The notes under the pieces are model-generated. The model was not told where the DNA came from, did no database searches, and was given only the letters and a program-made list of their open reading frames with translations. A stretch of DNA of 51,693 nucleotides, taken from NCBI GenBank assembly GCA_031292145.1, contig JARLHR010000188.1:1-51693 (forward strand), in the 5' to 3' direction. The stretch's first letter is position 1. Each line of letters opens with the position of its first letter. This stretch comes from Clostridium sp. (GTDB lineage: Bacteria > Bacillota > Clostridia > Clostridiales > Clostridiaceae). Positions 27,467 to 51,693 of the stretch are shown here, in pieces. The position numbers and the translations under genes are program-made.

Positions 27467-27546
27467 TACTACCCTTAGTAAATAGGGTGATTATACCACA
27501 AATTCGTCGTTTACTCAATGATTGCAGTACACTTTAGGTTGCAAAT

Positions 27547-27576
27547 AAAAGAGGACTGCTAATTAGCAATCCTTTT
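27547..27576 (-). terminator. Terminator overlapping the end of the 42-residue gene
   Basis: AAAGGATTGCTAATTAGCAGTCCTCTTTT on the minus strand consists of two arms, each shorter than the whole, around TAATTA, and it ends in a T-rich tract. Confidence 0.7.
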
Positions 27577-27691
27577 GAACTTCACTATTTTCTGCTTCTA
27601 GTTCTGCAAGCACTTCCGCACCGTACTTCTGCACCATTTCCGCCATAAAAGTTATAAAATTGTTATAATTCTTATTCTCCATATCATTCAT
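27563..27691 (-). CDS. Small hypothetical protein (42 residues)
   Basis: Begins MNDMENKNYNNFITFMAEMV and ends EVQKDC. AAGGTGG lies 8 bases before ATG 27691. It is an amphipathic, acidic, helical product with no known family. It sits between the recombinase and the Cys-rich pair and could be a small regulatory or excision-directing factor of the element, but nothing in the sequence shows that. Confidence 0.55.
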   Translation of the reverse strand: MNDMENKNYNNFITFMAEMVQKYGAEVLAELEAENSEVQKDC

Positions 27692-27774
27692 ATCAAATAC
27701 CACCTTAAATCATCAAATTTAAGTAGTTTTCCGATAGGCTTGATTTTGTGGCTAATAAAGAGATATTTAATTTT

Positions 27775-28014
27775 CTATTCAGTTTCTCTATATTGGCTGC
27801 AACGATAGCTTAGTTGGGCGTAATCCTCCTCCAATTCTCGTATGATTTTGTACTGTTTTGTAGTCATTGCACCATATCTATATAGCTGTCTGTACACATC
27901 CAATCCATTATCTGCGCTTTTTAGAGCTTGTTTATACAGACAATAGTTGCAGTCACCATTACAGATTAATGCTCCCATTTTTTCTAACTTTTTTAATCCT
28001 TTATACATTAACAT
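27775..28014 (-). CDS. Small CX3CX2C protein, copy 2 of a tandem pair
   Basis: A 79-residue protein paralogous to the one at 28034-28279: KGL(K/R)(K/R)LE.MG....CNGDC..CLYK, then a helix containing YGA(M/I)(T/S)T. The three cysteines (CNGDCNYC) plus one further C-terminal cysteine (SYRCSQY) could bind zinc. The preceding gene ends 19 bp upstream, so the two form an operon. Confidence 0.75.
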   Translation of the reverse strand: MLMYKGLKKLEKMGALICNGDCNYCLYKQALKSADNGLDVYRQLYRYGAMTTKQYKIIRELEEDYAQLSYRCSQYRETE

Positions 28015-28033
28015 TTATATACCTCCAATATAA

Positions 28034-28279
28034 TTAATCTCTACCTTCGCTAAGCTCTTTACATCTAATAAATAACAACAAATGCTCTACTGCCATCTCC
28101 CTTCTCCCTGCCTCATATGTCCTAGTGGAGATTGCACCGTAGTGGTGCAATACATCATACATAGCTAGTATCTTTGCAAACCCATCTTTGGCGTGCTTGT
28201 ACAAGCAACGGTCACAATCACCGTTACACTCAATCTCTCCCATATTTTCTAACCTTCTCAATCCTTTTGTAATTCTCAT
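28034..28279 (-). CDS. Small CX3CX2C protein, copy 1 of a tandem pair
   Basis: An 81-residue protein beginning MRITKGLRRLENMGEIECNG. It shares length, the cysteine motif (CNGDCDRCLYK) and the following helix with its downstream paralogue, so the pair arose by tandem duplication. Function unknown; a zinc-binding regulatory or adaptor role is a guess. AGGAGGAATAAATT precedes the start. Confidence 0.75.
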   Translation of the reverse strand: MRITKGLRRLENMGEIECNGDCDRCLYKHAKDGFAKILAMYDVLHHYGAISTRTYEAGRREMAVEHLLLFIRCKELSEGRD

Positions 28280-28366
28280 AATTTATTCCTCCTAAAATTT
28301 AATATTTATAAAATTTTGATTTTTTTTGCGATTTAATTCCAGATAAAACTACTTCATAAGAAGTTT

Positions 28367-28759
28367 TTACTTAGCTTTAAGTAATGCTTGTTTATCTTTT
28401 AGCACTTGCGTAGCTGTGCGCTGTACTTCTTGTGCGTCTTTTATAGTTTTCTCAGCTGCTATGCAATTAGCATCTGTTTTGCACACTGCTTGACCTATGT
28501 TAAGGTACACCCTATGTGCAATTATCTCGTCTTTATAATCGGGATTTATGTTTTCTAAGTCTAATGGTTCTAAATCTAATGTTTCTAAGTCCACCTTTCT
28601 TGGGTCAAAGTTTAACCAAAAGTTGTTAAATGGCTCTTGAGCTGCTCTTATTGTCATTAATAAAGCTTCATCGGCTTCTTTTACTGCTTGCTTAGCTACT
28701 CTTACCTCAGTTTGTAGCTCATTTACCTCTTTGTTTAATAATTTGTTGTTGTTTTTCAT
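28367..28759 (-). CDS. Hypothetical coiled-coil protein
   Basis: A 130-residue protein, predominantly helical with heptad-like Lys/Glu/Ala/Leu stretches at both ends (NKEVNELQTEVRVAKQAVKE and the C-terminal VLKDKQALLKAK). A central segment has three tandem LDLE-type repeats (VDLETLDLEPLDLENINP). No family recognised. ATG 28759 is chosen because GGAGGAA lies 7 bases upstream; a longer frame reaching 28831 lacks such a site. Confidence 0.65.
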   Translation of the reverse strand: MKNNNKLLNKEVNELQTEVRVAKQAVKEADEALLMTIRAAQEPFNNFWLNFDPRKVDLETLDLEPLDLENINPDYKDEIIAHRVYLNIGQAVCKTDANCIAAEKTIKDAQEVQRTATQVLKDKQALLKAK

Positions 28760-28911
28760 ATTCCATTCCTCCATATTAATTAAATTTATATTTCTACTGT
28801 GAAATATATGTAGTATTGAACGAGGCTTCAATATTGCAAATAAAGGTACAGCTAAAGAGCAACTTTATGCTAAAATGGTGTTATCGGCCTAATTAATGGA
28901 GGATTATATTT

Positions 28912-29958
28912 ATGGCAAAGCATTTAAAACAAATGACTCTAAAGGATAAACAGAGCCTTATAAAATCTACACTTAGAAATAATCAAGGTCTTTCAAATAA
29001 AAAGATAGCTAAATTACTAGGTGTATCACCTACAAGCATAGCTAAATATAGATTAGAACTATTCGGAGAGTCCAAGTTGGACTCTATGCCCGAGAGCATT
29101 GAGGATTGGACTATGCACACTTGGGTTAAGCAACACCCTGAAATATTAGACAAGAAATTGTCAAATAGAACTTTGAAATGTCTTAAGACACCCGGTGTTT
29201 TAGATAAATTAGTAGAATTAGAGGGTGTTACAAAAAGCCCTAGGCTGGCACTGACACTACTCCGTAAAGAACAACGAGAATTGAATAAGAACCCTATAAT
29301 TACGGTAACTGAGGACGATGTGAAACTGTTTGTAGCTGACCTAAGAGTTGAGAGTGACTACGACCAAGTAAAACCCGAATCAATAGATTTGATATTAGTT
29401 GATATGATGTACAAAGCTGAATATGCAGAACTATATCCACACCTTGGTCATATAAGTAAAAAGCTATTAAAACCTAACGGCTCACTCGTTGTTGTATGTG
29501 GTCAACTACTCTTGCCAAAGGCAACTCAAGCACTTGGTGAATATTTAACTTATAACTGGGTCCATGCTTATTTGACACCTAATGGAACTCAATTAGTACA
29601 TCCAAAACGAGTTATTCCTAGGTGGAAAGCTATCCTACACTATGTTAAAGGTACACCTAATAAAACCCTAGCGTATACACCTGACCTACATATACCGCCA
29701 CCTCGTGTAGCAGAAGATACCGACCTCCACCCATACCAACAAAGTGTGGATGTTGAACTTATCAAAGCATTTAGTACTGAGGGTGACACGATTATGGATT
29801 GTTGTATGGGAAGTGCTACTACGATTATAGCAACGCTTTTAGCTGGTGGTCGTAAAATCCTCGGCTCGGACTGTAACCCTCAATATGTCGCTACTGCTAA
29901 ATCTAGGGTCAAAGAGTTTTGGACAAATAAAAACAACAATGGAAACACTGTCAGATAG
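28912..29958 (+). CDS. HTH plus DNA methyltransferase-like protein with altered motifs
   Basis: A 348-residue protein. Residues 10-50 form a helix-turn-helix (NQGLSNKKIAKLLGVSPTSI). Residues 140-340 resemble N4/N6 DNA methyltransferases of the ParB-associated type: ESIDLILVDMMYKAEY sits where DPPY is expected, and TIMDCCMGSATTIIATLLAG with KILGSDCNPQYVATA where the FxGxGTT SAM site and helix are expected. The catalytic DPPY is DMMY and the SAM motif DPFxGSGT is DCCMGSAT, so activity is uncertain; it could be a DNA-binding regulator derived from a methylase. GGAGGATTATATTT precedes the start. It is divergent from the leftward genes and faces the iteron region. Confidence 0.75.
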   Translation: MAKHLKQMTLKDKQSLIKSTLRNNQGLSNKKIAKLLGVSPTSIAKYRLELFGESKLDSMPESIEDWTMHTWVKQHPEILDKKLSNRTLKCLKTPGVLDKLVELEGVTKSPRLALTLLRKEQRELNKNPIITVTEDDVKLFVADLRVESDYDQVKPESIDLILVDMMYKAEYAELYPHLGHISKKLLKPNGSLVVVCGQLLLPKATQALGEYLTYNWVHAYLTPNGTQLVHPKRVIPRWKAILHYVKGTPNKTLAYTPDLHIPPPRVAEDTDLHPYQQSVDVELIKAFSTEGDTIMDCCMGSATTIIATLLAGGRKILGSDCNPQYVATAKSRVKEFWTNKNNNGNTVR

Positions 29959-30344
29959 GTAAGTTGTTACATAGATGGGTCAAGGCCACATTTAGAACTG
30001 CTCTATACTAAATATTAGGGGTTTATAAACAAAATTTGTTAAAGGCACAGATAATTTGGTCTACGGCACTTATAATTTAGTACGAACTTCAACAAGTAAA
30101 ACCACCTAGCTTACAAACCGAACAACTGTTTGAACAGTAAACGGAATAACACATATTAACAACAAGTACAGAGCTACTATATATTATTACAGGATTACTA
30201 TGCACAAGAACTGAGCTACTAGGTACTACTAAGGACTTAGTTTATACAACTATAAACCGTACTCTGTACAAACAGATTATCGGTATGAAGTGTTGCTATA
30301 ACTAGAATTAGTGGTCAAAGTCTCTGATAAAACCAACTGCGTTA

Positions 30345-30675
30345 TTTATGTATACTTTTGTATACATAGCATCAGTTTTTGTATACATAATAGTGGTGTT
30401 TTTAAATTAGTTATAAGCTCGCAGAACATATATAAACAGGGTTTTAGCGTGTAAGACAATTGTATGAAATTGCATACAAAGTAGTGGTAGTTGTATACAT
30501 TTTAGTGAAATTTATAGAAAATAAGGCTAAAATGTATACAAAAGATATTGTTTTTAATACAGCACATTATTTTTGTATACATTTTAATAAGATTGATAAG
30601 CCCGCTGAGTAGATACAGTAGGAATTTGGCGTGTATTTAATTTGTATACATTTTGTATTACAGTTTGTATACAAA
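30345..30675. repeat. Iteron-like cluster of TTTGTATACA(A/T) sites
   Basis: At least eight GTATAC-centred sites in about 330 bp (near 30349, 30359, 30380, 30492, 30534, 30574, 30643 and 30667), plus degenerate GCATAC and GTATGA forms. Most read TTTTGTATACAT and are near-palindromic. Dense near-identical palindromes in AT-rich DNA without genes are typical of plasmid origins, centromere-like partition sites or multi-operator control regions. The binding protein is not identified. Confidence 0.75.
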
Positions 30676-30813
30676 TTATAATATGCTAGGTGTGTGAAGC
30701 TTCAAAGGCCCTAAAGGTCGAATAAAACTACTCTGCGCCGTAGTCATCACACTACGTGTGAGACAGTCCACATTTGGATTTTAATTTAATAATGGATTTT
30801 AATATTAAATCCC

Positions 30814-31270
30814 GCATATTTGGATTGGAGTTCTGGGAGTTAGTTAAATTATATAGCTTATTCGCTCTGTGAGAAGTTCTGAGGGGGTTGTGAATGGGTT
30901 TTTGAGCATTTATACTCTGAGAGTGTAAAATCGCTTAGAGGGGCTTATTTTGAGGTTTAAAGTATGATGGGTTAGAAATATCCTATTTTACGGAGGGTTT
31001 GGGTTGGGACAGTTACAGAATAATAAAAAAACCCGCATTTATTACTAGGTTTGTAGACGGCTTTGTGAATTGTTGAGTTAAATACATAGTACAAATAAAA
31101 CCGTACTATTACTAGGGTTAAGTATGAGTTTGACAATTAAAAACCCCGCCATACTATGCGTGGTTATATACTGAAAGACAGTCCTCTGTTTAATTTTTGA
31201 ACACCCGCACTATACTGGCTAAATGGGCGTTATAAAAACTATATGATTGGTGCTATTGAAGTAACCCGCC
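30814..31270. repeat. Spaced ACCCGC-headed segments
   Basis: (A/T)CCCGC occurs at about 30815, 31032, 31144, 31204 and 31265 (again at 31830), mostly 60-110 bp apart, each followed by an AT-rich tract with short hairpins. The meaning is unclear; it could be a string of small structured RNAs or protein sites. Confidence 0.45.
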
Positions 31271-31332
31271 ACTATAAATTACAGGTTTGGTGGTCGGTCT
31301 ATAAATGGGGAGTAATGTGTTCCAGATAAAAT

Positions 31333-31704
31333 CTAACAAGTTCGTACTTCGAGGATTTCAAGGGTTTCACGGTCTATTATAAGGGTTTTACCTACGCTCA
31401 AACTGTGGGCTACTGTTGCTAACTCCGAGAGTGTGGAACACTTAATGTAACCTTCCACCTGTTGTGGGGTAAATCCATTTGTTGTAGGGTCAGGGAAATG
31501 AATTGTCGCATAAAGGCAAAGGTCTTTAAATACTTCTCGACGACTGATTATAGAGCCTACATAAACAGGATTGTTGTACTGTTCTTCTATTTTGGCGTTT
31601 GCATCGTGTTCGAGAGCAGTATAATCCTCGGGGGTTCTATATTTTATGTTATCCAATCCTAAATCACCATACGTTTCTTCGAGTTTATCCATAACATCAC
31701 TCAT
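31333..31704 (-). CDS. Hypothetical protein
   Basis: A 123-residue protein (begins MSDVMDKLEETYGDLGLDNI) without recognised motifs. The middle (VYVGSIISRREVFKDLCLYA) and the end (VGKTLIIDRETLEILEVRTC) look like a small alpha/beta fold. ATG 31704 is chosen because GGAGGTG lies 6 bases upstream; the frame extends to 31719 without a site. It borders the large non-coding region. Confidence 0.65.
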   Translation of the reverse strand: MSDVMDKLEETYGDLGLDNIKYRTPEDYTALEHDANAKIEEQYNNPVYVGSIISRREVFKDLCLYATIHFPDPTTNGFTPQQVEGYIKCSTLSELATVAHSLSVGKTLIIDRETLEILEVRTC

Positions 31705-31824
31705 AATATGCACCTCCATAATTTTATGTTAGAGTTATTATAAGGCTCATTACACGAGTGCGTCAAATAAAACTGAATGGGTTTAGAGCTTGTGGAATAG
31801 GTGTTGCAAGGGTAAGGGAATGGA

Positions 31825-31858
31825 ATAACCCCGCATCTTAGTATTAGTGCGGGGTTAT
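31825..31858. terminator. Strong hairpin after the 59-residue gene
   Basis: ATAACCCCGC / GCGGGGTTAT, a perfect 10-bp stem with a 14-base loop. It directly follows the stop codon of the leftward gene at 31862, although the T tract is weak. Confidence 0.6.
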
Positions 31859-31861
31859 ATG

Positions 31862-32041
31862 TTACAGATACTCGTCTAACTCTCTTTTTAATTTATCGTA
31901 TTGTGAGTTACTAATCTCATTAGCTTCATAAGCTTCGTAGATACGGGCTGAAAGGGTGTCGGTGTCTGCGTCTTGATAGAGCAAGTTATTGATTTCAGCC
32001 ATAAAGTCGTGGAATACTTCGTCTTGCGACCTATTACTCAT
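31862..32041 (-). CDS. Small hypothetical protein (59 residues)
   Basis: Begins MSNRSQDEVFHDFMAEINNL and ends LKRELDEYL. A very strong AAAGGAGGTG site lies 8 bases before the ATG at 32041. It is an acidic helical protein with no family recognised; LSARIYEAYEANEISNSQYD is reminiscent of short helical regulators. Although short, the ribosome-binding site and following hairpin make it a real gene. Confidence 0.65.
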   Translation of the reverse strand: MSNRSQDEVFHDFMAEINNLLYQDADTDTLSARIYEAYEANEISNSQYDKLKRELDEYL

Positions 32042-32225
32042 TTGGGTTCACCTCCTTTAATCTTTAGGTTCTTAGTTTCGCTAAAGGCTCTATTTTTATC
32101 ATCTTGATAATAGCACAAGTCATAGGATTACTAAGCCTAGTATTATCTCTACAAGTAAAAAATCAAAGCCAAAACTATGTATATTTATATAGGGCGATAT
32201 ACCCACCTGTGACATTTTTAATATC

Positions 32226-32270
32226 AAAACCTCTGAACTGCCTATAAACAGAGCGTTTCAGAGGTTTTTA
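32226..32270 (-). terminator. Terminator after the 992-residue gene
   Basis: AAAACCTCTGAA / TTTCAGAGGTTTTT with an imperfect central part, 14 bp downstream of the leftward stop codon. Confidence 0.8.
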
Positions 32271-32283
32271 GCTTCAATTTGTT

Positions 32284-35262
32284 TTAAATTGTAACAGTAA
32301 CTTTATTAGCTCCATTTAATGTAAACTTAAGTCCGTTGTAAACAAATTCCTTATCCCCATCTTTCTCAGCTCTACTAAGCCTTTTACGCAGAGCAGCAGC
32401 AGATTTAAGATTAGCTGCTTTGGCGAAATCTGATAAGTTAGGGTAACCCGTGCCATTAAAATCAACCTGTGTGCCTTGCTTTTGCGTAGTTTCACTGTCG
32501 GTGGCTGTAATCTTATTGGTATCTTTATCTATACTGTAATTTCTGCCCTTATAAGTTACTGTTCCTCCAATTTGTAACTTAAGTAAAGCTTGTTGAAGTT
32601 TAGTATAAACACCTGCATTTGTGGAATTACAATATTTAGTTATAGAAGGGTAGGTGTGACCATTGTATATAACTGGTATGCAGTTTCTTTTTAAATCGTC
32701 GTGTGTGTCTTTGTCATACACGATGAGGTTGTCAGGGTCATTGTTGCGAGGATTATAGTCATCATGATGTATTTGATATTCAATAATGTCATTTTCAACA
32801 TCAATTTGGACCTGAGCAAGCTTTTGTGCATATTCCTCCGTCTTATATACCCATACTGAAAGGTAAGCCTGACTTATAGAGTAGGTATTAACAAATGTCT
32901 TAGATAGACTATACACGAGAGCTTCTTTTTCCGTATCTTTATAACGTGTTTCAGCTGTAGCTTTTAGCTCATATAAAAACTTCACATCTTTGCAGTATTG
33001 GCGATAACGATTAGCTAAGCGTTCTTTACGAGAAACACCATAGCTATCAGAGTCATCAAAGCTTTGGCGTATACTAATTGTAGCGATAATATCTTCGTAC
33101 TCGTCAGTATCACGAAGTAAATCTGCATAACGATTTATAAGTGATTTTAAGGTATTCCAGTTAACTGTCATAAATTCATACTTAGCGTAACCTTCCTTAG
33201 GAGAGTAACTAGGTAATATTTTAAGGTATTCACCCTGTACTGTATGTGTATAAAGGTCGCCACGAAGCATATATGCTGTGCACTGTGTACCTGCAAATAA
33301 AGGCAATAAACGCTGTATAGCACGGTCATTTACAGGTTTTAGAGCTTTAACTTCGTCATCAGATAATGACTTTTCTACAAATCTTGTAAACATAGTATCT
33401 GGGCGTAATCCTTCTATGTGTACCCAGTATTTTTCAGCCCTATTGAAGTTTTTGTTTATATACTTTTCTGTATCTAACTGCGGTTCTGCATTTGTAGGCA
33501 CTACATTAGGAAGTGGTGATGGATTACACACTTTAACAATACCATAAGTAACATTATGCACTAAAAGGTCAGTAGGCTTTGCTAAAGAACTTACACGGTC
33601 TTGTATGTACTCTGTAGACATATCTTCAACAAGAATTAATTCGGCATCAGTTACCTTTAAGTAATTCGTGGTGTTGTTTGCTAAGGTGTGATACTGCATT
33701 TTATCACGTAATTCTTGTGCGAGCGACTTGTAATCAAAAGCAAGAGCTTTGCCCTCTGCTACAGCGATAAGCTTGGACTTAACTTGTTCACACCAGCTGA
33801 GCATACCCACTATTGCACCGTGTTCTAACGCTTCGGGTACTGGTGTCAGGTCGTTTAGAACTATAGCCAAACAGTCCGATAAAGGCTTTGCTATATTAGT
33901 ATAATCGTCAAACCAATTTTCAGTGTGACCATTACTAGCTAATAGTTCCAGCATTTCCTGTCTTTTCTGTGCTGTTTCTCTGAGTGTAATATTATAATTT
34001 TGGTATATAGCATTTTGGTCAGCTTTTTGAGATTCTGCTAGTGCATCATTTAGTATATCTTCTAGGGCAAAAATACTTATAGGCTCTAACTTTGAGTATT
34101 CACTTTCTACGTTCAGAGCAAAGCTACTGATAAAAAGTTTGTGAATATCTGCTGTCACGATGTGTATAGCTGACTGAGAGCTTAAAAGCTGTTTGGCTGA
34201 GTCGGGGGTCTTAGCATTTACAAGTTCTACATATGGAGTTAGAGCCGCACACTCTTGTTGTGTAGAATTGATATAGTGGGCTAGGTGACTTGCTATATCG
34301 ACTTTAGCACATAGTGCTTTATATTCGGGACTTGCTAAACAGGATACTGAGTTTACTTTATATAGGGCTATAATTCTGTCGGCATCTAAATTCCAGTCCG
34401 CTGTACTTTTAAGTAGTTGTTTAATAATAATATAATCTGCATCAGATAAAAGGTTCTTTGTCTTGCTGATTTCTCTGAGCTTTGGATGCTTAGCACTTAG
34501 CTTATGAGCATCTTTGATAAGCTTCTTTAGCTTAGTAAATGCACTTTTAGCTTTGGTGCTTAGGTTTTCAGATGCTAGTGCTTGCTCTACTATGGACCAT
34601 TCTTTCTGCGGCAAATTGGCTCTGTGTTTAGTGAGTTGTGTAATGTCTTTAGATGATAAGTTTAAGTAGTCTAGGCGAGATTTACACAGGCTTATATATT
34701 TTTTAGTTTCCTTGCTAATAAAGGCTTCGAGCTGACTGTCGTAAGTAGCCCTCATAGCGTCCACCTCTGCTATAAGGTCAAGCACTCGTGGGTCAGTCAC
34801 TGTATCCTTACGAAGCGGTGAGTATACATTACACAAAAAATCCAATACATCTGCATATAAATCTGAGTCATTACCAATTAAAAAGTTAGCAATCTGAGCG
34901 TATAGACAATCCCTAGGTGTGACTATAATGTTTGGGTCTGACTCAGCTATAGGGTGCATAACAATATCTATGATAGTACCAATAAAAGCTGGCTCTTTAG
35001 CTTTAAGCTGTAATTGTATAGCTGTGTATGGAGCAAGCCAAAGTGCCAAATATTCAGCTTCTGTAGTTGTTATAGTACCAAAGTGGGGCAGAATGTACCT
35101 GTAAATAGCACCTGCATACTCAGTTAATGCCTCTTTTGTGTACTTTAGAAGTGGTCGCTGTCCATATAGGTAATTATCTTGTCGACACTTACTGTCAATT
35201 CTTTCTAAAGTGGATATATCAAGTAGATTCAGCATTAATTCTAAATTCAGTTTTGTTAGCAT
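32284..35262 (-). CDS. Very large unrecognised protein with C-terminal tandem repeat
   Basis: A 992-residue, mostly helical protein I cannot assign. No signal peptide, membrane segment, Walker motif or relaxase HUH motif is evident. The C-terminal 135 residues hold two related units of about 55 residues: YNGHTYPSITKYCNSTNAG... ending YKGRNYSI, and FNGTGYPNLSDFAKAANLKS... ending YNGLKFTL. The pattern (beta hairpin, helix-turn-helix, beta hairpin) resembles small DNA-binding modules found on homing endonucleases. The gene starts 3 bp after a small RHH-like gene and ends in its own terminator. A role as a DNA-processing or structural protein of the element is inferred from size and position only. 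Confidence 0.75.
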   Translation of the reverse strand: MLTKLNLELMLNLLDISTLERIDSKCRQDNYLYGQRPLLKYTKEALTEYAGAIYRYILPHFGTITTTEAEYLALWLAPYTAIQLQLKAKEPAFIGTIIDIVMHPIAESDPNIIVTPRDCLYAQIANFLIGNDSDLYADVLDFLCNVYSPLRKDTVTDPRVLDLIAEVDAMRATYDSQLEAFISKETKKYISLCKSRLDYLNLSSKDITQLTKHRANLPQKEWSIVEQALASENLSTKAKSAFTKLKKLIKDAHKLSAKHPKLREISKTKNLLSDADYIIIKQLLKSTADWNLDADRIIALYKVNSVSCLASPEYKALCAKVDIASHLAHYINSTQQECAALTPYVELVNAKTPDSAKQLLSSQSAIHIVTADIHKLFISSFALNVESEYSKLEPISIFALEDILNDALAESQKADQNAIYQNYNITLRETAQKRQEMLELLASNGHTENWFDDYTNIAKPLSDCLAIVLNDLTPVPEALEHGAIVGMLSWCEQVKSKLIAVAEGKALAFDYKSLAQELRDKMQYHTLANNTTNYLKVTDAELILVEDMSTEYIQDRVSSLAKPTDLLVHNVTYGIVKVCNPSPLPNVVPTNAEPQLDTEKYINKNFNRAEKYWVHIEGLRPDTMFTRFVEKSLSDDEVKALKPVNDRAIQRLLPLFAGTQCTAYMLRGDLYTHTVQGEYLKILPSYSPKEGYAKYEFMTVNWNTLKSLINRYADLLRDTDEYEDIIATISIRQSFDDSDSYGVSRKERLANRYRQYCKDVKFLYELKATAETRYKDTEKEALVYSLSKTFVNTYSISQAYLSVWVYKTEEYAQKLAQVQIDVENDIIEYQIHHDDYNPRNNDPDNLIVYDKDTHDDLKRNCIPVIYNGHTYPSITKYCNSTNAGVYTKLQQALLKLQIGGTVTYKGRNYSIDKDTNKITATDSETTQKQGTQVDFNGTGYPNLSDFAKAANLKSAAALRKRLSRAEKDGDKEFVYNGLKFTLNGANKVTVTI

Positions 35263-35265
35263 AAA

Positions 35266-35649
35266 TTACGCCTCCTTACTAGGTCTTAATTCAAACTGAA
35301 ATCCGTCCTCATTACATACATATTGTTTCCAGCCACTTCCATCGTCAGCCTCACCCACCAAAGCAACCTCATTACAAGCTAGGGCTTTCTCTACCTTGGC
35401 TACCTGTTCAGGTGTAAGGCGTTTACCCCAAGTCGTATGTAAGGTGTAAGCTGGTTTCTTTACTGGCTCTTGCTCTGATAAAACTTCCTCTGTAGGTATG
35501 TTGACTGCTACACAAGCAAGTTTTCCAACCATACACAAATAAGCACTCACTGATAGTGACGCTGCTGCTGCTTTTCGCTCTATGAGTTCCCTGTCCTCTT
35601 GCGTAGGAGGGTAAATAGTCCAAGGTTTTACATCTCTATGTCTAGGCAT
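35266..35649 (-). CDS. Ribbon-helix-helix-like protein, possibly MobC-like
   Basis: A 127-residue protein beginning MPRHRDVKPWTIYPPTQEDR. Residues 15-45 (REQ-like start, then ELIERKAAAASLSVSAYLCM) match the helix-turn-helix part of ribbon-helix-helix DNA-binding proteins such as MobC or plasmid partition regulators. The C-terminal half is not recognised. It is immediately upstream of the 992-residue gene (3-bp gap), implying coupled translation and function. AAAGGAGGCTGTTAAA gives a strong start. Confidence 0.6.
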   Translation of the reverse strand: MPRHRDVKPWTIYPPTQEDRELIERKAAAASLSVSAYLCMVGKLACVAVNIPTEEVLSEQEPVKKPAYTLHTTWGKRLTPEQVAKVEKALACNEVALVGEADDGSGWKQYVCNEDGFQFELRPSKEA

Positions 35650-35974
35650 TTTAACAGCCTCCTTTAAATTAATTTTAGTGTACCATTACAATAATGGTAT
35701 CACTATCGTAAAAGTATGTCAATTGGTGCATATTTTAACAATAATTAGGACTTCTTGTTGCTGTGACGAGTAGAACTCCTCAAAACTTCTCATTTTTTTC
35801 GAAAAAAAATATTTTAAAAATATTTTATATAGAAGTCAATATAAAAAGTTTGAGAGTGAAGTCTTACTTCACTCCGTAACTCTCTCATAAGTTCTGTGAG
35901 CCTTTAATTTACTTTGATGAGGGATTTATACCTATCACAAATAAAAGCATTGTGTAGGTCTTAATATGAGCTAA
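35650..35974. other. Intergenic region with hairpins
   Basis: Contains TACCATTACAATAATGGTA (about 35682-35700), a run of A/T (35793-35830), a GAGTGAAG..CTTCACTC hairpin (about 35855-35875) and one dispersed nonamer copy at 35938. The promoter of the RHH-like and 992-residue genes probably lies here. No gene seen. Confidence 0.5.
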
Positions 35975-43426: not shown

Positions 43427-43476
43427 TTATACGAGAGGGTTTATGTATCAAAAATATTTAATTAGCAAATAAAAAG

Positions 43477-44400: not shown

Positions 44401-44492
44401 TGTTTATCTCTCCTTTTAAATCGTATTTATTATTATATGAAACAAGGGCAAATAAAAAATACCCTTATTACTTTGTGGATTATTCTAAAGTT

Positions 44493-45857: not shown

Positions 45858-45910
45858 TATTTTTGTACCCCCTAAAATTTTTTTTATTAATCAATGCTTG
45901 TATCTTGTTT

Positions 45911-46588
45911 TTATGGTTTCTTAAAAATCTTCTCAAGACCTGTTACAGTCAATCCTTTCAGACAATTAGGTAGTGTACCATCCTGCGCATATTGCACTGC
46001 TTCATCTTTTGAGATAACAACTGCGAGCATATTAAATTCCTTCTCCGAGAATACATTTTTACTTTTCCTCCAATCAATATGTAAGTATGAAAGCTTATTA
46101 ATCACTAATGATTGATTACGGTTGTAATGGCACTCAGATAAAGAGCTGTAAATATCATTTTTATCAAATGGATACTTAACAGCATCACCCGCTTTTGTTC
46201 CGTAAAATTGGTTTTTGTACGAGAAGCCAGCATCTGCAAATACTATGTCTATCCCTGCACTTCCACCGTTATCATCAGACACAAATAAAGCGTATGTACC
46301 CTGTAAATCATTGGATGCACCATCAACATAGCTCCGTTTTCCTACAGTTATCTCACCATAATAATTAGGCTTGGACGATTTAACCTGAAATGCGCCGCCA
46401 CCACTGACAAAATAATTGGGTTTCGCTACAACAATTTGCTCGAATGTAAAGCTTGGAGTTGATTTAGGCGTTTGTGTAGGTGTTTGCGTAGGATTTGTTG
46501 ACGTGCTTGTGTCTACCTTTGTAGCACAACCAGTTAGTAGTGACACGCTTAAAAGACATATGGACAATGTTTTGATAACTATTTTCAT
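45911..46588 (-). CDS. Lipoprotein, unknown function
   Basis: A 225-residue protein with a lipoprotein signal ending in the lipobox LLTGC (cysteine 21), so it should be anchored to the outer face of the membrane. A Thr/Pro linker (TNPTQTPTQTPKSTPS) precedes a beta-rich domain with FVSGGGAFQVKSSKPNYYGE. A C-terminal segment has EFNMLAVVISKDEAVQYAQD. TAGGGGGATTTAT precedes the start. First gene of the leftward exported-protein run. Confidence 0.8.
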   Translation of the reverse strand: MKIVIKTLSICLLSVSLLTGCATKVDTSTSTNPTQTPTQTPKSTPSFTFEQIVVAKPNYFVSGGGAFQVKSSKPNYYGEITVGKRSYVDGASNDLQGTYALFVSDDNGGSAGIDIVFADAGFSYKNQFYGTKAGDAVKYPFDKNDIYSSLSECHYNRNQSLVINKLSYLHIDWRKSKNVFSEKEFNMLAVVISKDEAVQYAQDGTLPNCLKGLTVTGLEKIFKKP

Positions 46589-46708
46589 ATAAATCCCCCT
46601 AATATGTATAATTTCGGCTGAACATCTATTATTTTCTATATTTTAATAATGAGTAATATTTTTTCATAGATTTTTACTCCCTTCTTTTTTTCTACAGCAA
46701 CTCTCAAC

Positions 46709-46722
46709 AAGTGTACATTTTG
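46709..46722 (+). repeat. Inverted repeat, left arm (AAGTGTACATTTTG)
   Basis: Exactly complementary to 46894-46907. The two arms are 171 bp apart, around the terminator, just downstream of a serine recombinase gene. Candidate recombinase binding site. Confidence 0.6.
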
Positions 46723-46740
46723 CAATAAGTCATATCTCAT

Positions 46741-46801
46741 AAAAAAATCTCACCCATTCACTATCAATTTTACATTTGACAGTGAATAGGTGAGATTTTT
46801 T
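46741..46801. terminator. Bidirectional terminator
   Basis: AAAAAAATCTCACC..ATTCACT / AGTGAAT..GGTGAGATTTTTT stem with T runs on both strands. Confidence 0.85.
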
Positions 46802-46893
46802 ATATGCCTATGTAGATTTTTTGCGTTTTTGGAAGGATTTTATTGTATAATTTTAGGTAAATGTTATAATAATATCATTACTGTAGCTACTAT

Positions 46894-46907
46894 CAAAATG
46901 TACACTT
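46894..46907 (-). repeat. Inverted repeat, right arm (CAAAATGTACACTT)
   Basis: Partner of 46709-46722; 13 bp from the stop codon of the recombinase gene. Confidence 0.6.
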
Positions 46908-46919
46908 TCTGATAGCAAA

Positions 46920-47528
46920 TTATCTCTTTTTCATTACCCGGTGTTCTCTTAAACGTCTGTAAAATGTGGCTTCCTTTAGCCCTGTTTTCTCTAATAAATC
47001 CTTAAACTGCAACTCTCCATGCTCCCATTGCTTAATCAGATTTCCAAAGTTTTCAGGAGGTGTTTTGATAGGACGACCGAATCGAACACCTTTAGCACGT
47101 GCGGCTGCAATGCCCTGAGATTGGCGTATATGGATGCTTTCATATTCTTTCTGTGCTGCAAACGATAGTAACTGCAACACTACATCTGCAACAACCTTTC
47201 CCATTAAATCGCCTTGATGCCTTCCACGGGTATCTAACATTGGCATATCAATAACCACAATATCAACATCTTTATCAGTAGTTATTACCCTCCATTGGTT
47301 TAAAATCTCATCATAATTTCTACCAAGTCTGTCAATGCTCAATATGTATAGTAAATCACCTGCTTGCAGCTTACTCAGCATATCAAGATAATTCGGTCTA
47401 TTGAAGTCCTTGCCACTCTGTTTGTCAATAAAAATCTGTTCATCAGGTATTTGTAAATCATTAAATGCAACAATTTGTCTATCTTCGTTTTGTTCCTTAC
47501 TGCTCACTCTCACATAACCATATATCAT
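46920..47528 (-). CDS. Serine recombinase (resolvase/invertase)
   Basis: A 202-residue serine recombinase beginning IYGYVRVSSKEQNEDRQIVA, with the nucleophile in RVSS, SIDRLGRNYDEI and the E helix. The C-terminal helix-turn-helix is DLLEKTGLKEATFYRRLREH. It is divergent from a second recombinase gene across a 300-bp region, and inverted arms lie beyond its stop. Likely role: resolution of multimers or inversion within the element. GGGAGGTTTTTAAT precedes the start. Confidence 0.92.
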   Translation of the reverse strand: MIYGYVRVSSKEQNEDRQIVAFNDLQIPDEQIFIDKQSGKDFNRPNYLDMLSKLQAGDLLYILSIDRLGRNYDEILNQWRVITTDKDVDIVVIDMPMLDTRGRHQGDLMGKVVADVVLQLLSFAAQKEYESIHIRQSQGIAAARAKGVRFGRPIKTPPENFGNLIKQWEHGELQFKDLLEKTGLKEATFYRRLREHRVMKKR

Positions 47529-47725
47529 ATTAAAAACCTCCCATTAACTTTTTGATTGTATTTACATCATAAATCCTGTATGGCCTGACATAAAAAGCGA
47601 TTTGTTATATAAGTCGCATATAGACTAATTGATAAATATTATTTAAGTAGGTCAAAAACGGTCATTTTTGAAGCACTTTCAATGATGACGGTATAATCAG
47701 CGATTAGAATAGATGAAAGTGTGTC

Positions 47726-47764
47726 AAAAAAGGTGTCAAATTCTATTTACATTTTGACACCTTT
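47726..47764. promoter_or_regulatory. Palindromic operator region between divergent recombinase genes
   Basis: AAAGGTGTCAAA (47729-47740) is mirrored by TTTTGACACCTTT (47752-47764), with another GTGTCAAA just before. A possible promoter for the rightward genes is TTGACA at 47754-47759 with TATAAT at 47779-47784 (19-bp spacer, longer than ideal). The repeat overlaps the -35 box, so the recombinase may autoregulate. Confidence 0.55.
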
Positions 47765-47829
47765 ATGATACAGTATGTTATAATATGTTATAGTAAATTC
47801 CAGATAAAACCAGCAAGGAGGATTTAATT

Positions 47830-48390
47830 ATGTTAGTGAGCTATTTAAGAGTATCTAAATCAAATATGTGCCTAGACAGGCAGCTCGACGCTGTCATTGC
47901 TGCGGGAGTAGACATACGAAATGTATATCAAGAAAAAGAAACTGGCACTAAGCGAAATAGAACAGAACTTAATACAATGATTAGTGAACTGCAACCGGGT
48001 GACACTGTTATCATTTGCGAGCTGTCAAGGTTGTCGAGGTCTACAAGAGATTTGATTGAAATTGTTGAACTTATACACTCTAAAGGTGCTGATATTAAAA
48101 GCTTACGAGAACCGTGGTTAGATAGTACAACCCCACAAGGGAAGTTAATGTTCGTTATTTTTAGTGGCTTATGTCAATTTGAACGTGACTTACTCGCAGA
48201 GCGTACACGGGATGGACTTAAAGCCGCTAAATTACGAGGCAGAAATGGAGGAAGACCCAGCAAGCGTACAGATAAAGCAATTACGGTTCAAGCACTCTAT
48301 GGTAGCGGGGTTAAAATAGCTGAAATTGTTAGACAGACTGAGCTTAGCAGAAGTACAGTTAATAGAATTATTAGGGATATGGAGGTGTAA
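47830..48390 (+). CDS. Serine recombinase (resolvase/invertase)
   Basis: A 186-residue serine recombinase (MLVSYLRVSKSNMCLDRQLD) with the nucleophile in RVSK, ICELSRLSRSTRDL, and the C-terminal helix-turn-helix VKIAEIVRQTELSRSTVNRI. It differs from the divergent recombinase, so the element carries two distinct small recombinases. AAGGAGGATTTAATT precedes the start, and a nonamer copy lies at 47801 between promoter and start. First gene of a rightward four-gene operon. Confidence 0.92.
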   Translation: MLVSYLRVSKSNMCLDRQLDAVIAAGVDIRNVYQEKETGTKRNRTELNTMISELQPGDTVIICELSRLSRSTRDLIEIVELIHSKGADIKSLREPWLDSTTPQGKLMFVIFSGLCQFERDLLAERTRDGLKAAKLRGRNGGRPSKRTDKAITVQALYGSGVKIAEIVRQTELSRSTVNRIIRDMEV

Positions 48391-48393
48391 CCT

Positions 48394-48699
48394 ATGTTTG
48401 TTATACAACGAAATAGCTCTTTCTGGCTATGCACCACAACACAAAGTGCCTTTGTCGATGCTGTTCAGCTTAGACTACAAGGCAAGGACAAGGATTTTAA
48501 GGTCTTTGAACAACGGCTCAATAACGGAGAAATTATTGATGCGAGAGTCATTAAGGTTTATAAATGTGCTGATGCAACTACCTGTAAGGACTGCACGAAA
48601 TATACAGGGTGCGAAATTCGGCTAAAGGCGATTGATACTATAAATGCGCACAATAAATGGGTTAAATTAATTGAAGCTAATGATGGATATACATTTTAA
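48394..48699 (+). CDS. Hypothetical Cys-containing protein
   Basis: A 101-residue protein that follows the recombinase by 3 bp, hence coupled. The C-terminal half has a cysteine cluster, YKCADATTCKDCTKYTGCEI (C-x5-C-x2-C-x5-C), fit for metal binding. No family recognised. The start (ATG 48394) has GGAGGTGTAACCT upstream, within the end of the recombinase gene. Confidence 0.65.
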   Translation: MFVIQRNSSFWLCTTTQSAFVDAVQLRLQGKDKDFKVFEQRLNNGEIIDARVIKVYKCADATTCKDCTKYTGCEIRLKAIDTINAHNKWVKLIEANDGYTF

Positions 48700-48719
48700 T
48701 TATAAGGAGGATTTTTATT

Positions 48720-49049
48720 ATGGATAATAACAATAATCTTAATATCAGTTTTGTAGGATACGCTGGTGGCAGTATGAAAAAAGCACTTAAAAATCGAACA
48801 TATGCTATACACTTGGAAGACTTTTATAAGGCAGTAAATCAAGATACTACAAGTGGTTGTTGTAGTTGTTGTAAAAAAGAAACTATTATATATGCGATAC
48901 TACCAGTTTTACTGCCGATAAAAGCTACTGCACTTTCCATCTGCTACGAGTGTTTGAGGTCATTACCCTTAGAACTGACAGTAACAGGGGTCGACTGCAA
49001 CGGTGCTCCAGCACAACTTATTGATAGAAAATATGTAAGGTGGGTGTGA
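48720..49049 (+). CDS. Hypothetical zinc-ribbon-like protein
   Basis: A 109-residue protein. After an Asn-rich start it has SGCCSCCKKE and, 30 residues on, SICYECLRSL, two cysteine pairs that would make a zinc ribbon. Between them lies a hydrophobic stretch (IIYAILPVLLPIKATAL) that is probably the ribbon core rather than a membrane helix. AAGGAGGATTTTTATT precedes the start. Confidence 0.65.
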   Translation: MDNNNNLNISFVGYAGGSMKKALKNRTYAIHLEDFYKAVNQDTTSGCCSCCKKETIIYAILPVLLPIKATALSICYECLRSLPLELTVTGVDCNGAPAQLIDRKYVRWV

Positions 49050-49054
49050 TAGAT

Positions 49055-49510
49055 ATGCTGTATTGTCCTATTCATAGGGTGTTTGCAAGTAAAAGGCATC
49101 AATGTGATGCTCGCAAATTAGTGACAATAACAAAAGAATGTAAAGGTATAGTTGATAGACTATACGATGTAGTCGGGATTGGTGTCGGAGCATTAAGTGC
49201 TGCACACTTTATAACACCCGTGATTGGAGTGCTTAATGAATTTTATATCAATATTTACATTGATTTACCCAAAGACTATCCAATGGGTGTAATGGGAGAT
49301 TTTCCGATAGGCTGGGTCATACATACTGAAACAGTAAGTGAAGACCACCTCCCTATATTAGTAGTATCTTATAACGAAACATTTCGTTATGAGGGTACTA
49401 AGACTGTCAATACTAGGACTTTGGAAATTATAAGTGAGTTTGAAAATTACCTCGATACGCATTATGACCCACAGGCCATTAAAGCTGTATTAACTTTAAT
49501 GTATAGTTGA
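49055..49510 (+). CDS. Hypothetical protein
   Basis: A 151-residue protein from ATG 49055 (MLYCPIHRVFASKRHQCDAR), with AAGGTGGG 12 bases upstream. A GTG at 49040 in the same frame is an alternative that would overlap the previous gene by 10 bases. Cysteine and histidine near the start (CPIH, HQCD) could bind metal. The C-terminal helix is DPQAIKAVLTLMYS. Last gene of the rightward operon. Confidence 0.6.
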   Translation: MLYCPIHRVFASKRHQCDARKLVTITKECKGIVDRLYDVVGIGVGALSAAHFITPVIGVLNEFYINIYIDLPKDYPMGVMGDFPIGWVIHTETVSEDHLPILVVSYNETFRYEGTKTVNTRTLEIISEFENYLDTHYDPQAIKAVLTLMYS

Positions 49511-49519
49511 CCAAATAAA

Positions 49520-49550
49520 GACCACAAGGCTGATAAAAACCCTTGTGGTC
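49520..49550. terminator. Bidirectional terminator
   Basis: GACCACAAGG / CCTTGTGGTC stem between converging reading frames. The loop contains a nonamer copy. Confidence 0.8.
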
Positions 49551-49738
49551 TAAGTTATATACTGCGTCTGGCTGAGGTGTATAAGCTTGTCTAACTGTGT
49601 ACTAATGGTTAACACTTCATCATAACTGGATTTATAATCAGCACTCATTAAAGTGTTTAGTTTATCTCTAAGTGTATCTATATCATCATAATCTATATCT
49701 TTAGATATATCCCTCTCTATAACATTAAACCCCTTATT
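49550..49738 (-). pseudogene. Spo0E-like aspartyl-phosphatase remnant without start codon
   Basis: The minus-strand frame reads DIDTLRDKLNTLMSADYKSS, YDEVLTISTQLDKLIHLSQT. The pattern SxxLDxLI is the signature of Spo0E-type phosphatases, which dephosphorylate Spo0A~P and delay sporulation. An AAGGGG followed by ATG at about 49725 leads into a different frame that stops at once (ATG TTA TAG), so a one-base change seems to have separated the start from the body. The open frame has no other start codon upstream. Confidence 0.5.
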
Positions 49739-50153
49739 TTACCCTTAATATCACAATTTGTATAAATAGCATTTATACATAGTATACTATAATCATTTTT
49801 TAGCTTTGGAGTTTCTTCCTTAATATACGGCCTAAACTTGTACATATATTAATGAAGCAATTCCGCTAAAACATAATACAAAAATACCCCTACGGTATTT
49901 ACTAGGGCTATTTTAATTTATATGATGCTGATAAAACGGCTTGAACACTAGGGTTTGAGATACCTTGCTTCTGTACTATAACATTACAATGTTTAAATTG
50001 CAAGGGCTGTGGCACTAAGAATACCATACAACATATAGTATATGGTTTATTCTTAATGCCAAAGCCCATTAGCTCGTTAAATAAGAAGAATACATCTTAA
50101 ATGCAAAGATGAATTATACTCATATCCTCACCAATATATTGGAATTTATTCAC
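49739..50153. other. Intergenic region with a long hairpin
   Basis: At 50004-50067 a long imperfect hairpin pairs GGGCT, TGGCA, TAAGAATA and CCATA with their complements (TATGG, TATTCTTA, TGCCA, AGCCC). A short frame through it (LQCLNCKGCGTKN) has cysteine pairs but no start codon. It could be a small structured RNA, a transposon end or the remains of an insertion-sequence gene. Confidence 0.5.
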
Positions 50154-50579
50154 CTATTTATTCATTAGAAAAATCCCTATAATACATATCACAACACCAG
50201 TAGCTTTTTGTATAGTAAAGGCTTCTTTAAAAAATAGTGAACCAGCAATTAGAAGAAGCGTCGCTACGCATATATTGGATATAAGAGAACCTTTGCTTAT
50301 TTCCCATCCTAAACGATACATAATAATATATCCACCTTCAATACCAACTACAAGTAATCCTAATAAAATATTTGATATGTTGATACTTGAAATTTCCACA
50401 ATTAAGTTGCTTTTTGAAGTAACTAAAAATGTAATGATACTTATAAAACAAGCAACTCCATATGTTGCAACTAAACCAATAAATGGATTCGCATTGTTTG
50501 ACATATTCTTACTAGCTAAATGATAACAAACATTACATATAACCACCACTAAAAGTGGCATAAGAGAATTTACATTCAT
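50154..50579 (-). CDS. EamA/SMR-like small membrane transporter
   Basis: A 141-residue integral membrane protein with four predicted transmembrane helices (SLMPLLVVVICNVCYHLASK, a second near residue 40, LGLLVVGIEGGYIIMYRLGW, and a C-terminal TGVVICIIGIFLMNK), the size and form of half an EamA drug/metabolite transporter. Substrate unknown; such half-size members usually work as dimers. ATG 50579 is chosen because AGGAGACTTGTAAAA precedes it. It lies 36 bp after the acetyltransferase gene, so it is probably co-transcribed. Confidence 0.8.
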   Translation of the reverse strand: MNVNSLMPLLVVVICNVCYHLASKNMSNNANPFIGLVATYGVACFISIITFLVTSKSNLIVEISSINISNILLGLLVVGIEGGYIIMYRLGWEISKGSLISNICVATLLLIAGSLFFKEAFTIQKATGVVICIIGIFLMNK

Positions 50580-50615
50580 TTTTACAAGTCTCCTAAATCC
50601 TTTTTCATACATAAT

Positions 50616-51059
50616 TTATTTTTTATATAACATATCTATATGTGGAATATTATCCTCAAGATACTCCTCTGAAACTCCCTTAAAGCCAAGACTGCTATAA
50701 AAATTAAGTAAGTATGCTTGTGCTTGAATTTTAATAGTAGTTTCTTTTAAAGTGTTCTCTATAAACTCAATAGCTTTTAACATCATTTCTCTTGAAATTC
50801 CTTTACCACGATAATTTTTGTTTACAGTTACTCTGCCTATTGATATTTCATCGTAAGAAACTCCCTTTTCTAAAATTCTTACGTAAGCAACTACTTCTCC
50901 ATTTTCTTCACAAAATAAATGATATGAATTGAAGTCTTTATCATCACAGTCAAGATATGCACACTCCTGTTCCACAATAAATACTTTATTTCTTAATGCT
51001 AAAATTTTGTATAGTTCCTCCACCTTAAGTTGATTAAATTTTTTAATGTTCCAATTCAT
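50616..51059 (-). CDS. GNAT family N-acetyltransferase (ElaA-like)
   Basis: A 147-residue acetyltransferase. The ElaA-type start (LYKILALRNKVFIVEQECAY) is followed by VAYVRIL, then the acetyl-CoA-binding region IGRVTVNKNYRGKGISREMM (Q/RxxGxG/A pattern) and the C-terminal LLNFYSSLGF typical of GNAT enzymes. Substrate not predictable. GGAGGTAATTTA precedes the start. It and the transporter look like ordinary chromosomal genes and contain no copies of the dispersed nonamer. Confidence 0.9.
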   Translation of the reverse strand: MNWNIKKFNQLKVEELYKILALRNKVFIVEQECAYLDCDDKDFNSYHLFCEENGEVVAYVRILEKGVSYDEISIGRVTVNKNYRGKGISREMMLKAIEFIENTLKETTIKIQAQAYLLNFYSSLGFKGVSEEYLEDNIPHIDMLYKK

Positions 51060-51125
51060 TAAATTACCTCCATCTACATCATATATTAGATTTTAATATA
51101 ATACTTAAACGCTCCTAATAAAAAC

Positions 51126-51187
51126 AAAAGCACCGAATCTTATTCCTCCTTAAAAAGGCCCTAATGGAATAAGATTCGGTGCTTTTT
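51126..51187. terminator. Very strong bidirectional terminator
   Basis: A perfect 21-bp stem with first arm at 51126-51146 (AAAAGCACCGAATC...) and second at 51166-51186, loop of 19 bases, T run on each side. Confidence 0.9.
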
Positions 51188-51412
51188 AACATTCTTACCC
51201 GGGGATAAGAATAAGCATCATATTATTTAGTTACTATGTATAATATCATAGAATTATCTCTTAATCAATGGTGAATTTAAACTGAAAGACCCTCAGATAA
51301 AACCTTCTGATGGTCTTGGTTTAACCTATAAATAAGCAAATATAACTAGCTATAACCCTAGTAGTTTAAAGGGATATAGCTTTTTGGCTGCATACACAAT
51401 CGCTTATCTATA

Positions 51413-51661
51413 TTATATAACCTCAAAGTGCTTAAGTGCATCCTTAATTGCTTCAACTTTATGTTCCGGTGCTGATTGATGTGGGTACTTTAGCTCTTCT
51501 ACTGCGTTTGGTGCATCATACATAGGTAAACCAAGCGAACGCTTAACCTCAGCTATATAAGCTGTATGCACTTTAAATCCGTACTTTTCTTCTACATAGC
51601 TCTGTATCATTGAGTAAGTAACTCGCTTAGGTAGCCTATCAACACTCTCCTCATACTCCAT
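51413..51661 (-). CDS. Small protein resembling the C-terminal extension of clostridial RlmD
   Basis: An 82-residue protein. PKRVTYSMIQSYVEEKYGFK, VHTAYIAEVKRSLGL and a C-terminal HKVEAIKDALKHFEVI match the extra domain often found at the end of clostridial 23S rRNA (uracil-5-) methyltransferases, and also as a stand-alone protein in phages and plasmids. The function of the domain is unknown. The start at 51661 has a weak context, and the gene is preceded by a nonamer copy at 51669. Confidence 0.75.
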   Translation of the reverse strand: MEYEESVDRLPKRVTYSMIQSYVEEKYGFKVHTAYIAEVKRSLGLPMYDAPNAVEELKYPHQSAPEHKVEAIKDALKHFEVI

Positions 51662-51693
51662 TTTTACACTGATAAAACCATCTGCGTTTTTGT

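Follow-up and report, generated by a model that had tools for sequence, protein, structure and literature searches.

Chi and the FtsK orienting polar sequences (KOPS) are known polar words of chromosomes and are read by motors of the host. The related architecture imparting sequences (AIMS) are defined, in the excerpted text of PMC5993296, by their place on the leading strand and their nearness to the chromosome replication terminus. One-strand sites are also met in phage T7, whose 36 EcoP15 sites all lie on the same strand (PMC3874151, in excerpt), and among mobile DNA, the islands of Bacillota that resemble the staphylococcal cassette chromosome (SCC) may occur as tandem composites and bear conflict genes (PMC10061031, likewise in excerpt). 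The system described here is the nonamer CNRATAAAA, repeated along one strand of an integrative island, named W, in contig JARLHR010000188.1 of the Clostridium sp. assembly GCA_031292145.1 (genome G000), a stretch of 51,693 nucleotides that is called the window below. This nonamer, often extended by a C to CNRATAAAA(C), is with a probability of about 0.9 a polar sequence of the recognition type that belongs to a family of integrative islands; it is kept almost wholly to one strand, selected at the level of the DNA, and fixed in polarity relative to the gene for a small protein named A6.

The nonamer in the window and in related islands

A preliminary description of the window, made from the letters alone, had reported the word CWRATAAAA with 28 copies on the + strand and one on the - strand in the right-hand part. 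The repeated polar motif is confirmed and is stronger than first claimed: there are 33 + copies between 27542 and 51677, the single - copy, at 44762, is borne out, and the part left of 25769 holds 6 + and 2 - copies, where three + copies had been counted. The comparison with shuffled sequence that had been called for shows the enrichment to be real, since both window strands together contain 43 matches, whereas 100 dinucleotide shuffles average 9.4 and none exceeds 17. For the segment 27467-51350 the same number of shuffles gives a mean of 1.2 and a maximum of 4 for the 32 + copies observed, and a mean of 1.4 for the single - copy. Varying each position in turn widened the consensus to CNRATAAAA, in which position 2 is free and the last A, at position 9, can in part be replaced by G or T; after the nonamer, C or A and then C are favoured. 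In this wider form the island part of the window (25794-51693) holds 39 + copies and 1 - copy. The copies had been placed mostly between genes, which is partly true, with 15 of the 37 + copies in 27467-51350 lying inside open reading frames (ORFs) of at least 80 aa. Their spacing is more even than random in W (coefficient of variation 0.67, reached by 0.005 of simulations) and in W only, being absent as a feature from the six other islands tested, and no conserved flanking boxes were seen at the W copies. The copies are listed here, with C7 standing for the island of Clostridium chromiireducens introduced below.

26641..26649, +, motif copy inside the recombinase gene, within the island
27542..27550, +, motif copy
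28340..28348, +, motif copy
28994..29002, +, motif copy inside the methyltransferase gene
29657..29665, +, motif copy inside the methyltransferase gene
29924..29932, +, motif copy at the end of the methyltransferase ORF, kept in C. chromiireducens at C7:44090
30324..30332, +, motif copy
30719..30727, +, motif copy CGAATAAAA, kept as CCAATAAAA at C7:44246
31092..31100, +, motif copy
31323..31331, +, motif copy
31764..31772, +, motif copy
34127..34135, +, motif copy inside the 992-aa gene
34443..34451, +, motif copy inside the 992-aa gene
34979..34987, +, motif copy CCAATAAAA inside the 992-aa gene
35475..35483, +, motif copy
35938..35946, +, motif copy
36436..36444, +, motif copy
37025..37033, +, motif copy CGAATAAAA
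37892..37900, +, motif copy
38282..38290, +, motif copy
38992..39000, +, motif copy
39889..39897, +, motif copy
40738..40746, +, motif copy kept at C7:48680
41467..41475, +, motif copy
42105..42113, +, motif copy
42643..42651, +, motif copy
43160..43168, +, motif copy
43466..43474, +, motif copy
43969..43977, +, motif copy
44449..44457, +, motif copy
44762..44770, -, motif copy, the sole one on this strand in the island
45830..45838, +, motif copy CCAATAAAA
47801..47809, +, motif copy
48915..48923, +, motif copy CCGATAAAA
49530..49538, +, motif copy in a hairpin loop
49928..49936, +, motif copy kept at C7:54165
50360..50368, +, motif copy
51115..51123, +, motif copy
51294..51302, +, motif copy in a hairpin
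51669..51677, +, motif copy in the island-borne 3' end of rlmD, aligned with a copy in G096C11 and with none in G175

Ten islands were compared. C7, in Clostridium chromiireducens DSM 23318 (G008), was reached via a relative of the 992-aa protein of W; a search with A6 led to three islands in genome G096 (G096C14, G096C11 and G096C63) and to those in G175, G097, G557 and G438, and a search with the methyltransferase-like protein of W led to G529. For strand counts the islands were oriented by A6, except G529, which was oriented by the methyltransferase gene; the bounds of C7, G096C14, G175, G097, G529 and G096C11 are approximate, being set by gene content and homology. The ten islands together contain 175 + and 11 - copies of CNRATAAAA, or 148 and 10 without the near-duplicate G438, distributed as follows.

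W (27467-51350): 37 +, 1 -
C7: 17 +, 1 -
G096C14: 10 +, 0 -
G175: 12 +, 0 -
G097: 22 +, 3 -
G557: 32 +, 2 -
G438: 27 +, 1 -
G096C63: 5 +, 1 -
G529: 9 +, 2 -
G096C11: 4 +, 0 -

Eight of the ten carry one copy per 0.5-1.1 kb on one strand, while the density is one per 1.5 kb in G529 and one per 4.7 kb in G096C63. DNA uptake sequences are dense motifs without strand preference, and the strand counts of 175 and 11 rule out a sequence of that kind. Four W copies (29924, 30719, 40738 and 49928) have conserved counterparts where C7 aligns with W; that of 30719 has another letter at the free position. The carriers come from three families, f1, f55 and f72, of the class. Among the genomes sampled, A6 profile matches, weak ones included, were found in 6 of 204 genomes of the family (with the alignment labelled A2), 8 of 225 of the order and 6 of 391 of the class, and methyltransferase matches at E 1e-25 in 4 of 391 genomes of the class.

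The letter-reversed form of the motif occurs 15 and 14 times on the two strands of nine islands, and among 300 letter permutations counted in the same nine, the six most skewed are near variants of the motif itself. When seven islands were scanned without supervision, C..ATAAAA came first among the polar words in W, G096C14, G097 and G557, and a variant of it did so in C7 and G175.

Host DNA behaves differently. The fetched flanks outside the islands hold 34 + and 39 - copies in 208 kb, and random pieces of host chromosome hold 19 and 13 in 180 kb of G557 and 30 and 43 in 200 kb of G097 (counted as G-rich to C-rich strand, 15:17 and 39:34, respectively). In 6.34 Mb of the genome of W there are 837 and 860 copies of CWRATAAAA, with 621 and 581 for the letter-reversed control. 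Neither enrichment nor strand bias of the motif was seen in the host chromosome, as sampled by this genome and by the pieces of G557 and G097; the bias belongs to mobile islands and is absent from the host. The genome-wide count upheld the supposition that the island, but not its host, has an excess of the motif, and that of conservation in related elements was upheld as regards the shared polarity, though one of the ten, G096C63, has copies near its right end only. Contig C2 of the same genome was considered as a second element (15.6 kb, with 8 + and 0 - copies of CWRATAAAA) and was rejected, its genes reading as ordinary host DNA on the + strand.

Selection on the DNA strand and rival roles

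The level at which the motif is selected was addressed in seven islands, G438 included, by shuffling synonymous codons within each ORF of at least 80 aa (300 shuffles). The 25.5 kb of these islands that lie outside ORFs contain 71 + copies and no - copy. Inside them, ORFs on the - strand hold 51 + copies against a mean of 10.4 in the shuffles (maximum 19 of 300), and those on the + strand hold 35 against 12.3 expected (maximum 20 of 300), whereas - copies stay at the neutral level (7 against 7.9, and 1 against 1.0). With + copies far above expectation and - copies at it, one orientation has been gained on the DNA and the other is not avoided. The earlier view that the motif is tied to the DNA strand, whatever the direction of transcription, is in this way supported for ORFs of both directions.

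This asymmetry bears on the idea that the islands escape type III restriction in the manner of phage T7, whose EcoP15 sites all point the same way. The T7 case provides a precedent in the excerpt of PMC3874151, and G175, G557 and G438 carry genes that read as type III-like Mod and Res; evasion, however, needs the loss of one orientation and not the gain of the other, and the excess of + copies over neutral - copies contradicts it, leaving it a scarcely credible explanation.

It had also been suggested that the motif may be a boundary sequence for gene-cassette exchange, a role that would be integron-like. A few copies do stand at such places: at the C7 copy at 48680, sharing with G096C14 gives way to sharing with W, the G096C11 copy at 4085 divides C7-like from G175-like DNA, and W 29924 is the start of a block shared with C7. 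As a general rule the suggestion fails, because 86 of the 157 copies in the seven islands are inside ORFs and the edges of the exchanged restriction-modification (RM) cargo of G557 and G438, at 22.5-22.8 kb and after 31522, lie about 0.3 kb or more from any copy, even if 5 of 49 left homology edges fall within 10 bp of one. A boundary role is accordingly most improbable.

In the near-identical tRNA-Leu islands of G557 (C1:625440-644966) and G438 (C1:~2199979-2216470), the core parts are almost the same, and the RM-like cargo that they enclose is several percent different; this is a recent swap of cargo. In G557 the swapped segment 22818-31522 holds 6 + and 0 - copies in 8.7 kb, against 26 and 2 in the rest of the island, which includes an insertion sequence-like insert devoid of copies; this suggests that cargo may gain copies after its arrival.

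A further alternative is a guide on double-stranded DNA, read in one direction by a helicase-nuclease or by a translocase of the FtsK/SpoIIIE type that travels on the broken or excised island, for protection, recombination or direction, as Chi and KOPS are. The distribution, dense, polar, blind to genes and without avoidance of the other strand, fits such a guide, and edges of homology blocks lie at most 10 bp from a copy in both partners at 5 of 49 left and 1 of 49 right edges, where 0.06 are expected for each. Those coincidences are inflated and thus weak evidence, because a conserved motif stretches the alignments. Hosts lack the strand bias and the high density, so the motif is not the host's own Chi or KOPS, and the absence of host enrichment likewise rules out a host Chi or AIMS. 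Moreover, no FtsK-like or AddAB-like protein was found among the W ORFs scanned, some short ORFs being outside the scan. A guide of this sort is unlikely, if the least so among the alternatives weighed here.

Under the reading that is favoured instead, an element-specific factor would recognise the motif strand-specifically, most likely as single-stranded DNA during replication or transfer of the island; this has somewhat less than an even chance. The island would be excised and then replicated or transferred as one strand, the factor would read CNRATAAAA on that strand, and the copies would serve as repeated landing or loading sites. The motif would then work like Chi or KOPS, in being polar and selected for density, but would belong to the island. 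The single-stranded phase is inferred, as are the process that the motif would serve and the factor that would read it.

Candidate readers and hairpins

The A6 family is the best candidate for the reader of the motif, although a doubtful one. A6, of about 150 aa, is intact in nine of the ten islands and is encoded on the motif strand in each; it stands near the right end in most of them, and in G097 it is found well inside the island, beside the methyltransferase gene. Its sequence gives little guidance as to function: searches of PDB, Pfam and PHROGs with an alignment of seven members gave no match below E 0.01, and the A6 protein of the window matched nothing in NCBIfam and nothing on plasmids. 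Queries with A2 and with the methyltransferase found no match in viral contigs.

The second candidate partner is an orphan methyltransferase of the island, for which the motif would be the target and whose adenine methylation of one strand would mark one daughter or else the strand being transferred. In form the motif resembles one-strand modification sites, and a gene for a helix-turn-helix (HTH) methyltransferase-like protein is present in 7 of the 10 islands, on the motif strand in each (relatives of the W protein are found in G175, G097, G557, G438, G096C63 and G529). On the other hand, the biased motif of C. chromiireducens (G008) occurs in a genome with no such gene at E 1e-8, and G096C63 has the gene, yet no + copies over its first 20 kb, so that the enzyme is ruled out as an obligatory partner. 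What we take to be its catalytic motif IV is also altered, to DMMY in W and to DIPY in G175. That the motif is the target of this methyltransferase is improbable, clearly more so than a guide on double-stranded DNA.

Several observations weigh against the favoured reading and against A6 as the reader. Nine of the ten islands were found via A6 or an A6 neighbour. In G096C63 the unsupervised scan saw no such word, and the interval 220.5-240.5 kb has 0 + copies and 1 - copy, all others being at the right end; since this island has copies only near that end, motif density is not obligatory. Three short A6 contigs were left out of the counts (G001, 3.4 kb, 1 + and 2 -; G068, 9.0 kb, 2 + and 3 -; G408, 3.2 kb, 4 + and 1 -), and two of the three show no strand bias; weak A6 matches in G034, G095, G549 and at G097:C1:5159190 were left out as well. 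In G529, A6 is represented by two weak pieces on the motif strand (18.6 and 17.9 bits), and a genome search there with A6 gave nothing at E 0.01. These pieces, together with the position of A6 away from the right end in G097, lower the likelihood that A6 is the reader. The structure model of A6 is poor (pLDDT, the predicted local distance difference test score, of 46) and suggests no function, and hairpins, which might expose the motif, are seldom its setting: 8 of 268 copies of CNRATAAA lie in a context with a stem score of at least 9, against 2.0 expected, and two of the 8 are G438 repeats of G557 sites. A hairpin loop as the general context of the motif is ruled out by this count.

G529 was found without A6, by its methyltransferase, and still has the 9 + and 2 - copies given above. 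Its A6-like gene is interrupted by a transposase-like insertion, with parts of the gene on both sides (L089-L090, reversed 18337-20070).

At the right end of W there are two hairpins that do present the motif.

49519..49551, +, hairpin just 3' of A6 whose loop contains the motif, stem score 12
51286..51317, +, second hairpin of the right end, its tip formed by the motif, stem score 10, aligned with G096C14, G096C63, G557 and G097

Seven hairpins picked by hand in five islands have ATAAAA in common at their tips and differ in their stems; six of them start with AAGAC and end with GTCT around differing inner stems, and that of G096C14 has A in place of the first C. In W, G096C14, G096C63 and G557 they follow A6, and in G097 they come after the resolvase module. 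A shared tip on differing stems fits recognition of an exposed strand, and these hairpins may be taken as a hint, the sole one, of single-strand reading.

The island, its relatives and known systems

W extends from about 25.8 kb to about 51.72 kb and ends 28 bases past the end of the window, in the next contig of its genome (C239); this contig and the end of the window overlap in 141 bases, all identical. An 11-bp repeat on the - strand, CACGTTGAGAC, has one copy at 25804 and the other in C239 (window-coordinate 51721), inside rlmD, whose reading frame runs on for 469 codons in that contig. Judging by these repeats, the island is inserted in rlmD. It seems to replace the 3' end of the gene with a version of its own, because the identity of 87-89% with G175, from another genus, stops near coordinate 51742 and does not go beyond. 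The main features are these.

25794..51693, no strand, integrative island within the window, with its right end at ~51711-51721 in C239
25794..25804, -, attL core CACGTTGAGAC, lying within the recombinase gene at its 3' end
25769..27466, -, large serine recombinase of 565 aa (Pfam Resolvase, Recombinase and Zn ribbon)
28912..29958, +, orphan HTH-DNA-methyltransferase-like protein (Pfam N6_N4_Mtase, 6.7e-10)
32284..35262, -, 992-aa protein with a weak HNH-like C-terminal stretch
35266..35649, -, NikA-like protein of 127 aa, below the Pfam cut-off
46920..47528, -, small serine resolvase of 202 aa
47830..48390, +, small serine resolvase of 186 aa
48394..48699, +, conserved 101-aa protein of the right-end module
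49040..49510, +, A6-family protein of 156 aa, candidate motif reader
51413..51661, -, 3' end of rlmD borne by the island (the G175 homologue matches RlmD TIGR00479)

The final codons of the recombinase gene fall outside attL, and its product aligns over residues 9-523 with a CcrB-like NCBIfam model at 216.7 bits, below the cut-off of 900 bits. The right-end module consists of small + strand genes, A6 among them; in the slot before it, some islands have the serine resolvase (47830-48390) and others a small tyrosine recombinase-like gene (L018:12499-13179). The 992-aa protein had no match in phages, plasmids, genome contigs or viral contigs. As DNA, the island had no phage match, and its sole plasmid match covers the GNAT acetyltransferase gene (50616-51059), which is 87% identical to a gene on the Clostridiaceae plasmid CP026601. 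The cargo at 43477-45857 looks secreted and comprises a choline-binding-repeat protein and a transglutaminase with a Listeria-Bacteroides repeat, the latter with a counterpart in C7 to which it aligns at 60% identity. Between 30350 and 30672, 8 of the 17 GTATAC sites of the window (TTTGTATACAT and variants) are gathered in 320 bp without long ORFs, a cluster that looks like an iteron-type origin. Contig C2 (L010:5437, G000:C2) has a second copy resembling attL and the old rlmD 3' end, perhaps the displaced host end or the border of another island. The left neighbour of W (20528-25654) encodes, by reading, a resolvase, an ATPase-type protein of 703 aa and a short piece of a DNA cytosine methylase, and is possibly another island, in which case the two would form a tandem composite insertion.

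The relatives differ in integrase and site. Large serine recombinases are assigned by family match in W, C7 and G529 and by similarity in G097, and the integrases of G557, G438, G096C14 and G096C63 read as tyrosine recombinases. The rlmD site of W is shared, by similarity of flanks, with G175 and G096C11; C7 is a 12-kb serine-recombinase island that splits a YifB-family gene, which we take to be comM; G529 adjoins rlmH, and the split gene at G557 and G438 reads as tRNA-Leu. G096C63 (L031, G096 C63:223000-242999; L065) encodes a P4-family primase as well as a protein resembling DNA polymerases. No complete transfer machinery was recognised in the islands. The left parts of G557 and G438, from two genera, are 99.8% identical over 3.9 kb, and with no such machinery recognised, their mode of movement becomes testable. 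A polar word that is owned by islands, unenriched in their hosts and kept between families would imply that islands carry strand-reading machinery of their own, and it offers a sequence handle for finding them. No description of such a motif on islands was found in the literature searched, as judged by titles, the openings of abstracts and the excerpts cited here, which does not prove that there is none.

Compared with Chi and with AIMS or KOPS, the motif is likewise a short, degenerate, strand-biased word selected across coding and non-coding DNA, and it differs in that the bias is owned by the island, has one polarity throughout and is absent from the host. The single-strand initiation or primase sites of plasmids are also strand-specific and may sit in hairpins, but number one or few per plasmid, whereas here there are dozens, many in ORFs, and no primase was noticed that is common to all carriers. 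Integron attC sites are repeated in the same orientation along a gene array; the island motif, unlike them, is not confined to gene ends, and in W it lacks conserved flanking boxes. With the EcoP15 sites of T7 it shares the placing of all sites on one strand, the difference being that T7 is missing one orientation and the islands have gained the other.

The islands may tentatively be regarded, with the odds rather against it, as SCC-like clostridial islands with a strand-address system of their own: a dense one-strand word and a dedicated reader, A6, would mark the island as self in one direction during a single-stranded step of replication or transfer, new cargo would gain the word over time, and the system would be independent of the integrase. 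The likeness to SCC lies in the large serine recombinase of several members, in the use of 3' ends of rRNA methyltransferase genes as sites (rlmD in W, and rlmH adjoining G529) and in the conflict cargo that SCC-like islands also bear. The differences are that W sits in rlmD and so fails the rlmH criterion, with G529 alone adjoining rlmH; that comM and tRNA-Leu serve as sites too and some integrases read as tyrosine recombinases; that neither Cch nor CcPol was recognised among the W ORFs scanned; and that a polar motif is not mentioned for SCC-like islands in the excerpted text of PMC10061031.

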